Under the pieces are notes generated by a model. That model was given only the letters and a program-made list of their open reading frames with translations, was not told where the DNA came from and ran no database searches. A DNA stretch of 64,000 bases from Nesterenkonia xinjiangensis (GTDB taxonomy: Bacteria > Actinomycetota > Actinomycetes > Actinomycetales > Micrococcaceae), in contig NZ_JACCFY010000001.1 in assembly GCF_013410745.1 (NCBI RefSeq), forward strand, positions 1,426,001 through 1,490,000. The letters run 5' to 3'. The number at the start of each line of letters is the position of its first letter. The stretch's first letter is position 1. The position numbers were made by a program, and so were the translations under genes. This document shows, in pieces, positions 4,620-9,839 of this stretch.

Positions 4620-5816
4620 ATGAGCCACCTCACAGCAGCACCGCGCATCGTCTGCGTCCCCGATTCGTTCAAGGGCTCCGCCAGCGCCGCCGAAGCTGCG
4701 GCAGCACTGGCCCGAGGCGCCCGGCAGGTCTTCCCCCAAGCGGAGATCATCGAGCTGCCCTTCGCCGACGGCGGCGAGGGCACCTTGGAGGCGCTGCTGG
4801 CGGTCTGGGGGCAGGAGGCCGAGCAGATCGAGGTGGTCGACGCCATCGGCCGCCCCGGCACCGCCCTGGTGGGCCGCTCGGCTGACGGCCGCACCGCGGT
4901 CCTCGAAGCAGCCCAGGGCAACGGCCTGCCTCAGGTCAGCGACGTGCCGCTGCAGCCCGGCCGGGCCGACACCTACGGAGTGGGGCTCATCGCAAGGCAC
5001 CTCCTGGACAGCGGCCCTGAGGACGAGGAGCTGGCGGTGGGCGCCCGGGTGGAGGAGGTCCTCCTCTGCATCGGCGGTTCGGCCAGCACTGACGGGGGCA
5101 CTGGACTCCTCCGCGCCCTGGGCGTGGAGTTCCTCGACGCCTCCGGCGCACCCGTGGCCCCCGGCGGACAGGGGCTGGCCCAGATCGCCTCGGTGGACAC
5201 CACGGGGCTGCACCCTCGGGCCGCCGCGGTGCGCTGGAGGATCGCCGTGGACGTGGACAACCCGCTCACCGGCGCACGCGGCGCGGCCGCGGTGTTCGGC
5301 CCGCAGAAGGGCGCGGACGACGACGCCGTCGCGGCGCTCGACGCCGGGCTCTCCCACCTGGCCGTGGTGCTCGCCGCACACACCGGAGTCCCTGCAGAGC
5401 AGTACCGTCAGGCCCCGGGCTTCGGCGCGGCCGGCGGCATCCCGGTGGGGATGGTGAGCCTGCTCGACGCCGAGGTGGTGCCAGGCTCACAGATGGTCGG
5501 CGAGGCCGTGGGACTGGCTGAGACGCTGGCCGAGGCGGACATCGTGCTCACCGGGGAGGGCTCGCTGGATTCCCAGTCCCTGGGCGGGAAGGTGGTGGAG
5601 GCGGTGCGACGTCACGCGCCGCGGGCCGCCGCCGTCGTCGTCGTCGCCGGGACCGTGAAGCTCAGCGCGGCCGAATGCCGGCAGGCGGGGCTGACGGGGG
5701 CGTTCTCCATCGCCCCCGGCGCAGCCGCCCTGGAGGAGCTGCTGGAGCGGGCTCCGGAGCTGATCGAACAGAGCGCCGCCCAGGCCTGCGGACTGCTGGC
5801 CCACGGGGCGGGCTGA
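4620..5816 (+). CDS. Glycerate kinase (class I, GlxK/GarK type)
   Basis: The protein has 398 residues and carries the N-terminal DSFKGSASA motif (residues 13-21), FADGGEGT in the first domain, the CIGGSASTDGGTG nucleotide/substrate loop and LTGEGSLDSQSLGGK near the C-terminus, all typical of class I glycerate kinases. It phosphorylates D-glycerate with ATP to 2- or 3-phosphoglycerate in the cytosol, linking sugar-acid breakdown to lower glycolysis. It lies 10 bases after the enolase-superfamily gene with only a weak ribosome site, so translation probably depends on the upstream gene. It converges with the FMN reductase gene, 8 bases away. Confidence 0.94.
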   Translation: MSHLTAAPRIVCVPDSFKGSASAAEAAAALARGARQVFPQAEIIELPFADGGEGTLEALLAVWGQEAEQIEVVDAIGRPGTALVGRSADGRTAVLEAAQGNGLPQVSDVPLQPGRADTYGVGLIARHLLDSGPEDEELAVGARVEEVLLCIGGSASTDGGTGLLRALGVEFLDASGAPVAPGGQGLAQIASVDTTGLHPRAAAVRWRIAVDVDNPLTGARGAAAVFGPQKGADDDAVAALDAGLSHLAVVLAAHTGVPAEQYRQAPGFGAAGGIPVGMVSLLDAEVVPGSQMVGEAVGLAETLAEADIVLTGEGSLDSQSLGGKVVEAVRRHAPRAAAVVVVAGTVKLSAAECRQAGLTGAFSIAPGAAALEELLERAPELIEQSAAQACGLLAHGAG

Positions 5817-7932: not shown

Positions 7933-8113
7933 GATGCCCCCTCCGCAGACCGGGAGATCCGGCCGTTTCAAATTTGAATGACACGTCCGTCTCCACTCTA
8001 TCCAACCCCTCAAGGCGAGGGGAGTGCCAGGGCCCTTCGCCCTTCCCCAGGCTCCGACGTCGGCCGGCGGATCTCTCATCCTGCTCTCACCTTCAGCGCG
8101 CATTCTGGATGTC

Positions 8114-8500
8114 ATGTGGAAACGAGTCCTCGTGGTCCTCGGTGCGGTCACGCTCATCGGCGCCGCACTGCTGGGTGTGCGCGCCTTCCAGCTGGCCACG
8201 GAACCGGCCAGCCTGCCCACTGAGATCCTCGACGTCGAGCGTCGACTCGATCCTTCCCGCTCGGTGACGGACGACCAAGCCCACCGGGAGCCGGGGGACC
8301 CTCCTTCCGCACCCGAAGCCTCCCCCTCCCCTTCTCCCGAGCAGCCCGAGGTGGCCGAGCAGACCCCGGCGGAGCAGTCCCAGATTCCCCAGCCGGCGCC
8401 CCAGTGGGACGACGATGACTGGGACGACGACGACTGGGACGACGACGACTGGGACGACGACTGGGACGACGACGACTGGGACGACGATGACGACGACTGA
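8114..8500 (+). CDS. Membrane-anchored or secreted protein with Trp/Asp tandem repeats
   Basis: This is a 128-residue protein of no recognised family. The N-terminus (MWKRVLVVLGAVTLIGAALL) is one hydrophobic segment with a basic start, acting as an anchor or signal peptide. A Pro/Glu/Ser-rich linker (about residues 55-95) follows, then six Trp-Asp repeats (WDDDD, one WDDD, and a final WDDDDDD) to the stop. If the anchor is N-in, the acidic tail lies outside the membrane, where it could bind cations. The last 14 bases overlap the start of the degenerate-kinase gene, so the two are probably made together. Ribosome site is weak. Confidence 0.65.
   Translation: MWKRVLVVLGAVTLIGAALLGVRAFQLATEPASLPTEILDVERRLDPSRSVTDDQAHREPGDPPSAPEASPSPSPEQPEVAEQTPAEQSQIPQPAPQWDDDDWDDDDWDDDDWDDDWDDDDWDDDDDD
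8405..8497. repeat. 15-bp tandem repeat encoding WDDDD
   Basis: TGG followed by GAC/GAT codons recurs six times with a 15-base period, one copy being 12 bases. The nucleotide copies are nearly identical, so the array may vary in length. The downstream gene starts inside the last copy. Confidence 0.9.
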
Positions 8501-9839
8501 GCCTGTCCCGCCCGCCGCCGGCCCCCGGCTCAAGCTGGTGACCTGGAGCCTGCTGATCAGCGCCCTCGCCCTGGGCGCGACCCTGGTGGCCGGGCGCACC
8601 GTACTGCTGGTGCAGGTGGGCCAGCAGGCCGATGAGACCATCACCCAGGAGGTGCAGTCCTTCATCGGCTTCGTCGAGGGCTCTCACCACATCGGCAACG
8701 GCGAGGAGGAGCAGTTCGCCTCCGAGGCCGAGCTGATGCGCAGCTTCCTGGCCCGGCAGACGCCGGAAAGCCACGAGGCGCTGATCGCCCTCTCCGACGG
8801 AGAAGTGATGCTTCTGGACAATGCGCGGCACGACGCCGGCCTCCGCTTCGCCGAGTCAGAGACCGCCATGGACGCCGTGCTCTCCGCCGAGGCCAGCTCC
8901 GGGGCCCTGCACACCGACGGCTTCGGAGAGGTCCGTTGGGGCCGGGTGACCACCGACCAGGATGGAGCGTTCCTGGTCCTGCACTTCACCACCCCGGCCG
9001 AGGCTGACGTGCAGACCACCACCGCCACCTTCGCCCGGCTCGGCGCCGCGTCCCTGCTCCTGGCGGCGACCCTGGCCTGGCTCACCTCCCGCTGGAACGG
9101 CACACCGCCGGCGCAGCGGTCCACCACCGTGGAGGCACAGGTACCGAGACGCTCGGATCCCCTGCCCCCTCCCCCGGACATCCACCCGCAGGCCACGACT
9201 GCGGCCCGGCTGCTGCTGGGGGTCCAGCGCGAGGCCGCTGTGACACACCCTCAGCGGCGGTTCCTGCTCGCCACGGAACCCCTCCAGAACCCTGACGTCG
9301 TCGAGACGGCCCTCCGGAGTGAGGCGTCGGTCGTCCGGGTGCTCGGAGAGCTCGCCCAGATCGAGGCAGAGGTCGACGCCGACGCCGTCCACACCGGCAT
9401 GCTGGCGCTGGTCGACCATGCACTGGGCACCGAGAGCAGCCGCTCCACAGCACCCGTGGACGCCGCCGTGGTCCTCACCGCCGGCACAGTGGCCGCGCAG
9501 CAGGATTCACCGAGCAGACTGCGGCTGACGGTCCGCAGCCTCACTCCACAGACCCCCGACCCGGAGCCCGGCGCGACGGCGGCCGTCCCCGCCGGACGCG
9601 CCACGACGACCCGACTCAGCCACACTGCGATCAGCAGCGCGGAGGCTGCCCGCCCGTCCCCATCGGGCGCCTTCGGCAGCTGGGAGATGGCCGAGCAGGT
9701 CGCCGCTGCCCACCAGGGATGGTGCTGGCGGGACTCCGGGTCGGGCCCGACCACGAGGATCGGCATGGATCTGCCGCTCTCCGCGTCCGACGCGGCGGGC
9801 GCTGCCGCTGGGCTTGGGGCTGATGCAGGGGCCATGTAG
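8487..9839 (+). CDS. Membrane sensor with degenerate histidine-kinase core (probable pseudokinase)
   Basis: The ATG at 8487 gives 450 residues. One membrane helix near residues 15-38 and a second near 184-202 enclose an extracytoplasmic domain of about 145 residues, as in sensor kinases. The cytoplasmic part resembles a kinase whose active motifs have decayed. RRFLLATEPLQNP (about 256-268) sits where the phosphoacceptor box RRF..ASHELRTP is expected but lacks the His. ALVDHALG (about 305-312) replaces the N-box with its Asn changed. GAFGSWEMAEQVAAAHQG (about 393-410) resembles a G2 box and following helix without GLGL. No response regulator is adjacent. The assignment to the kinase fold is my inference from motif spacing. 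Confidence 0.6.
   Translation: MTTTEPVPPAAGPRLKLVTWSLLISALALGATLVAGRTVLLVQVGQQADETITQEVQSFIGFVEGSHHIGNGEEEQFASEAELMRSFLARQTPESHEALIALSDGEVMLLDNARHDAGLRFAESETAMDAVLSAEASSGALHTDGFGEVRWGRVTTDQDGAFLVLHFTTPAEADVQTTTATFARLGAASLLLAATLAWLTSRWNGTPPAQRSTTVEAQVPRRSDPLPPPPDIHPQATTAARLLLGVQREAAVTHPQRRFLLATEPLQNPDVVETALRSEASVVRVLGELAQIEAEVDADAVHTGMLALVDHALGTESSRSTAPVDAAVVLTAGTVAAQQDSPSRLRLTVRSLTPQTPDPEPGATAAVPAGRATTTRLSHTAISSAEAARPSPSGAFGSWEMAEQVAAAHQGWCWRDSGSGPTTRIGMDLPLSASDAAGAAAGLGADAGAM

Follow-up and report, generated by a model that had tools for sequence, protein, structure and literature searches.

Two overlapping genes in Nesterenkonia xinjiangensis appear to be what is left of a larger sensory operon. 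Taken as a whole, we lean toward a reading in which the second gene, ORF2, encodes a pseudokinase sensor, the first, ORF1, encodes an acidic partner inherited along with it, and the pair, as an operon remnant, is controlled by a regulator encoded elsewhere in the same genome (C1:309652-310317). By its sequence, ORF2 is a descendant of histidine kinases that has lost the catalytic residues, and any function it still has would be that of a membrane sensor without catalysis, perhaps one late in decay.

The window, meaning the whole stretch of 64,000 nucleotides that was analysed, is G000:C1:1426001-1490000 of a 3.57 Mb genome. A check of its open reading frames placed the pair at 8114-9839, where an initial annotation made from the letters alone had put it, with the 14-base overlap (8487-8500) that the annotation reported. 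An alternative in-frame ATG at 8415 would extend ORF2 to 474 residues, but the added residues are the acidic tail read out of frame. The features are collected in Table 1.

Table 1. Features of the ORF1/ORF2 locus (positions within the window)
Feature	Position	Strand	Description
TCTCATC-N4-TCTCAC	8074-8090	+	11-base direct repeat; inferred site of an OmpR-type regulator (proposed)
ORF1	8114-8500	+	128 aa; N-terminal hydrophobic segment, Pro-rich stretch, acidic tail
Six W-D units in ORF1 tail	8405-8497	+	Asp counts 4, 4, 4, 3, 4, 6
ORF2	8487-9839	+	450 aa, ATG at 8487; derived from a histidine kinase, with HAMP, DHp and the catalytic residues absent
First transmembrane segment of ORF2	8529-8621	+	residues 15-45, by hydropathy
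External sensor domain of ORF2	8622-9011	+	about residues 46-175; best conserved part, by alignment
Second transmembrane segment of ORF2	9018-9086	+	about residues 178-200; aligned with relatives
Linker in ORF2	9087-9194	+	occupies the place of relatives' HAMP and DHp, by alignments
RRFLLATEPLQNP	9255-9293	+	start of ATPase remnant, not phosphoacceptor site, by profile alignment
ALVDHALG	9405-9428	+	former N-box, Asn lost
GAFGSWEMAEQVAAAHQG	9666-9719	+	former G2 box; the stretch after it is the best-scoring part of the core

ORF1 had been described as a single-helix protein with a six-fold WDDDD tail; it does have one hydrophobic segment (residues 1-27) and six W-D units, but the number of aspartates varies from unit to unit. 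The two helices proposed to flank an external domain in ORF2 fared similarly: the first is found by hydropathy, and the second falls under the hydropathy cut-off, yet aligns with the second segment of related kinases. Pfam and NCBIfam searches gave no match near a cut-off for either protein, and the HisKA/HATPase search that the initial annotation had suggested returned no Pfam domain in ORF2. The external sensor domain, which carries a net charge of -17, has no Pfam match and no PDB match, and a structure prediction for ORF2 from two sequences was unusable (pLDDT 46.7, pTM 0.32). No response regulator match lies anywhere in the 20 kb searched around the pair; the annotation had remarked that none stands next to it.

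The case for kinase descent is a chain of profile matches that runs through related cores, together with trees of the sensor region. Against a profile built from 60 intact kinases, the motif-less core of one relative (G189) reaches 135 bits, and the ORF2 tail scores 36.9 bits on a profile of 19 related motif-less cores, against 7.8 for the best of 600 shuffles; the former G2 region leads this match with 26.9 bits. Scored directly on the profile of 60 intact cores, the tail reaches a weak 7.2 bits (best shuffle, 4.7). The initial description of a decayed histidine kinase thus holds, and the strings it assigned to the N-box and G-box do align to those boxes of related kinases. In the alignment, ORF2 reads LVDHALS at the N-box, RSLTPQT in the G1 column and SGAFGSW in the G2 column, with no recognizable HATPase_c domain. 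The reported loss of His and Asn is likewise borne out, there being no HisKA match in ORF2 and no Asn in the former N-box. What required revision was the phosphoacceptor site, as the string proposed for it aligns where the ATPase part begins. Neither HAMP nor DHp appears in the alignment, and the phosphoacceptor is not mutated in place; its domain is absent altogether. Because no DHp is present, ORF2 reads with certainty as a dead kinase. ORF2 resembles OmpR-type sensor histidine kinases, from which its descent can be traced through intermediates, in its pair of helices flanking the same type of external sensor and in its ATPase remnant; it differs in lacking HAMP and DHp, the phosphoacceptor His, the Asn of the N-box and the Asp of G1, and in having no adjacent regulator.

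A profile of three Nesterenkonia sequences matched 77 of the 395 family genomes, and 77 loci were read, from 75 matched genomes (without G025 and G098) plus G003 and G026. The coupling of motif and regulator at these loci is strict. Where the HE motif is intact, a regulator match lies downstream (53 of 53 loci), and where it is missing there is none (24 of 24 loci); ORF2, too, has no adjacent cognate regulator, in contrast to those 53 intact relatives. With a spurious hit (L079) and a broken gene (L064) set aside, 22 motif-less loci are readable. At L064 (G318), the kinase-like, transporter and glycerate kinase genes are each split into several frames.

As read from these loci, the ancestral operon in the window's family runs from the acidic protein through kinase, response regulator and DASS-type transporter to glycerate kinase, and the pair is a remnant of these five genes instead of the newly formed two-protein sensor first proposed. 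The transporter follows the regulator in 31 intact loci, 30 of which also show a glycerate 2-kinase (PF02595); in the remaining 22, no such transporter was seen in the available stretch. The relatives' transporter matches Pfam CitMHS (115 bits) and Na_sulph_symp (98 bits), and DASS symporters are among its PDB relatives. Of the 22 readable motif-less loci, 18 have the transporter directly after the kinase, in the same operon, and keep the glycerate kinase; G245 keeps the glycerate kinase without the transporter, and the three Nesterenkonia loci, the window's own included, have neither. At the G245 locus (L171), pseudokinase and glycerate kinase have no transporter between them, and the reading frame of the pseudokinase continues into other sequence.

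Outside Nesterenkonia the motif-less kinases have lost less. Among the 19 readable members, 18 lack His at the phosphoacceptor column (G308 keeps it, without the following Glu), the N-box Asn is kept in 18, the GLG of G2 in 17, and the G1 Asp has become Asn in 16, with Asp kept in G307 and G151. A His does occur one column after the normal place in 16 of the 19, where phosphorylation seems unlikely, and these kinases are likely dead.

The 22 motif-less rows form one clade in trees built from the sensor region alone, and so not from the decayed part (92/98 with 80 rows in a first tree without L064, L079, L161 and L179; 99/96 with 69 rows in a second tree also without most loci of the other intact type). 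This clade spans six genus codes (g1, g3, g6, g14, g22 and g23), and the window, G005 and G011 make up a starred clade among the g6 rows. Two loci of family f3 (L208 in G677, L209 in G561) hold a kinase of the same sensor type with the H-box motif AHQEISGP. The N, G1 and G2 boxes of these kinases look intact, and a transporter starts less than 200 bases past the kinase end, leaving no room for a regulator. This change is possibly a second, independent conversion; the best tree keeps the f3 loss separate, though a single loss for both families was not rejected (AU p 0.13).

Upstream of the pair, the end of TCTCATCCTGCTCTCAC lies 23 bases from the start of ORF1. The repeat is present at the same place before the pair in G005 and G011, and hence in all three Nesterenkonia species, which suggests control by a regulator encoded elsewhere. 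Across ten genomes, TCTCAYN5TCTCAY has 26 matches versus one for the reversed pattern, and the two g6 genomes among the ten have no match. A shuffle test gave p <0.05 in 13 of 19 motif-less rows and in 21 of 44 intact rows, so that many intact operons are without such a repeat; this test misplaced the ORF1 start for the window, G005 and some others, and the Nesterenkonia repeat rests on the upstream comparison. Five g22/g23 genomes carry the repeat before the pair and again before a second operon with intact kinase and regulator, where an acidic-tail gene may also be present, judged from an out-of-frame reading alone.

Regulators whose operons carry TCTCAT repeats share SNVVDVYVRYLRNKLG, which we take to be their putative recognition helix. 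The window's own genome encodes an intact homologous kinase and regulator at C1:308.1-310.3 kb (L146), and this regulator differs from SNVVDVYVRYLRNKLG at two of 16 positions, in a comparison that covered two of the genome's eight regulator matches. This regulator, of the OmpR type, probably sets transcription of the pair through the TCTCAY repeat. The kinase encoded with it shares its sensor type with ORF2 (E 8e-10) and has as its best NCBIfam match the heavy-metal sensor kinase TIGR01386 (180.8 bits, below the cut-off of 292.55). In the stretch read, no acidic gene precedes this kinase and no TCTCAY repeat was seen.

The repeat also occurs in other settings, with three further TCTCAY sites in the window's own genome. 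At L119 (G000), L120 (G005) and L126 (G011) it is followed by a lipoprotein and then by a gene that is MarR-like by eye; the lipoprotein has a PepSY match of 16.7 bits, below the cut-off of 24. Further Nesterenkonia sites precede genes identified by eye as encoding glycosyltransferases and, for G005 and G011, a protein of M50-like type; others fall within genes or in the gaps between them, and a role in control is doubtful there. Upstream of ORF1 at L072 and L070 there are up to six tandem 11-base TCTCAT-like units, not two.

ORF1 is probably an exported acidic partner of ORF2 that was inherited with it. Basic residues at its start suggest that the tail lies outside the cell. The pairing with an acidic single-helix protein, which the initial annotation had pointed out, is real: by a loose rule, an acidic-end gene precedes the kinase gene in 62 of the 77 loci. 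The tail may bind metal ions or cationic ligands, as the annotation proposed; direct charge pairing of tail and sensor is unlikely unless a cation bridges them, since both are strongly negative. The ORF1 of G005 has a short acidic tail, and in G011 a deletion has spared only the opening codons of the gene and its terminal part, which contains the ORF2 ribosome-binding site, so not every genome requires ORF1. Elsewhere in the order, an acidic gene precedes intact kinases of other families at six of nine loci examined; at L202-L207 (families f11, f17 and f19), poly-Asp gene ends lie upstream of intact kinases with the same sensor type, and for this reason the acidic partner probably predates the window's family. 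A search of the open-licence literature found no paper on the operon or on the acidic partner.

Within Nesterenkonia, 30 genomes were searched and 11 gave a match at E <= 0.001. Orthologues of ORF2 are found in three of the 30 (G000, G005 and G011); of the other eight matching genomes, six (G003, G008, G014, G018, G025 and G026) have intact kinases, a reading that leaves out G020 and G029. The orthologues in two more species have the same upstream reductase and pirin genes as the window, which makes the pair more than chance. The sensor domains of the window and G005 are 52% identical, and the ORF2 frame is open in all three species, each without the same domains. The relatives' transporter has no match in the window's own genome at E <= 1e-5, so the partner proposed for the relatives is absent here; seven other Nesterenkonia genomes have proteins merely 24-29% identical to it.

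Neighboring genes were considered as partners and set aside. Pirin and reductase adjoin the pair in all three Nesterenkonia species, though neither turned up beside the relatives' loci, where two distant pirin matches, 3-5 kb off, are both beside intact kinases. A glycerate kinase gene (PF02595) lies at 4620-5816 (+), 2.3 kb before ORF1. Its product is 37% identical to the relatives' enzyme, and it was rejected as a surviving operon member; none was found near the pair in G005 or G011, and its position is probably coincidence.

Rates of substitution set the Nesterenkonia pair apart. For the sensor, dN/dS is 0.51 (G005/G011) and 0.80 (window/G005), for the core 0.46 and 0.67 in the same comparisons, and for ORF1 0.62, against 0.11-0.43 for the neighboring pirin and reductase genes. 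Scaled to the neighbors' dS, the ratio is about 0.6 for the sensor and about 1 for the core and ORF1; the sensor looks weakly constrained and the core nearly neutral, which fits either weak constraint or recent release from constraint. Five motif-less pairs outside Nesterenkonia, three of which share G136, give 0.05-0.17 for the sensor and 0.15-0.24 for the core, values far enough below 1 to make selection for a protein clear in these five; the pair G144/G264 gives 0.32 and 0.65, and G273/G190 is too close for a dN/dS reading. Four intact pairs give 0.08-0.21 and 0.06-0.17.

The sequences show what has been lost from the five-gene operon. One clade no longer has the phosphoacceptor motif or the regulator gene but has mostly retained the sensor, the acidic protein, the transporter and the glycerate kinase. 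Nesterenkonia has lost HAMP, DHp and the ATP-site residues as well, leaving the pair by itself next to a pirin gene. ORF2, if it works at all, would read an external ligand without phosphotransfer, perhaps a small carboxylate such as glycerate, and the non-catalytic sensor named in the initial annotation is its likeliest working form. ORF1 would serve as an extracytoplasmic cofactor. In the relatives, output would probably pass by direct contact to the transporter encoded right after the sensor; in Nesterenkonia, what is left may be a residual sensor or a ligand sink.

A broader proposal, which we advance tentatively and regard as rather doubtful, is that the pseudokinase lineage came to serve a DASS-type carboxylate transporter as a sensory subunit that works without phosphotransfer. 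This would have happened one or more times in the window's family and perhaps a further time in f3, with the window as a later stage. On loss of the regulator, the sensor would have retained its membrane parts and exchanged gene control for direct control of transport, and in the window sensor and acidic partner would persist without a transporter under a regulator encoded elsewhere. The shifted His in the relatives slightly lowered our estimate of this proposal. DcuS-DctA of E. coli, a sensor and a carboxylate transporter reported to act together (PMC8307970), offers a model for the relatives, where contact is deduced from gene order alone; DcuS differs from ORF2 in being an active kinase with a regulator, and the model is not applied to Nesterenkonia. 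For FasC of group A Streptococcus, a sensor protein that occurs naturally, pseudokinase status has been proposed by those who described it (PMC12675982). Like ORF2 it is paired with another protein, and unlike ORF2 it retains a His, phosphorylated in the view of its authors, and acts together with a regulator (PMC12675982).

The main rival holds that the Nesterenkonia pair is a functionless relic in late decay, with frames still open only because time has been short. We consider this quite possible, though short of an even chance. The elevated dN/dS of sensor, core and ORF1 relative to the neighbors, the deletion of ORF1 in G011, the restriction of ORF2 to three of 30 genomes and the loss of the transporter all speak for it; yet ORF2 is open in three species, a sensor or core is still open in only 3-14% of runs of a neutral simulation with substitutions only, the sensor changes more slowly than the core, and the operator is kept in all three species. 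Against the pseudokinase-sensor reading itself we count the near-neutral evolution of core and ORF1 with the G011 deletion, the narrow distribution, the absence of the transporter from the genome, the shifted His of the relatives, and, for ORF2, the weak match to intact cores, the lack of a Pfam domain and the unusable structure prediction.

It is improbable, in our estimate, that ORF2 is instead an allosteric partner of the intact kinase at C1:308.1-309.6 kb, with ORF2 or ORF1 binding it through the sensor or membrane part. The shared sensor type, the lack of an acidic gene and a repeat at that kinase's own operon and the link from the repeat to its regulator's family would all suit such an arrangement, but most Nesterenkonia have no ORF2, and ORF2 itself has no DHp, the surface through which such kinases normally dimerize, which closes the usual route to a heterodimer. 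The precedent is ChrS of Corynebacterium glutamicum, a sensor kinase made catalytically inactive by a frameshift in laboratory evolution and linked to a paralogous kinase (PMC9491836). Like ORF2 it is an inactive sensor kinase in an actinobacterium; unlike ORF2 it keeps its own regulator gene and a paralogous kinase, and two-hybrid testing gave heterodimers for the native kinases, with none significant for truncated ChrS (PMC9491836). Two further readings are already contradicted. That ORF2 is an unrelated two-helix membrane protein with a chance likeness to kinases would agree with the empty Pfam and NCBIfam searches and the weak direct match to intact kinases, but it is scarcely credible given a sensor homology that reaches 77 of 395 family genomes, nested within kinases, and the core's score on related cores. 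Nor do we give any real weight to an intact kinase hidden by a sequencing or assembly error or a shifted frame, a caveat of the initial annotation for which no point in favor was found: the same domains are missing from open frames in three species, and a search of all reading frames there at E <= 1 gave neither a HisKA nor a HATPase_c match, with four HisKA matches elsewhere in the same genome.

The series from intact kinase with regulator, through motif-less kinase with transporter, to sensor alone asks what role a kinase can have without phosphotransfer. The acidic partner, common to live and decayed systems, seems to be an accessory component, so far unstudied, that belongs to a common type of sensor.
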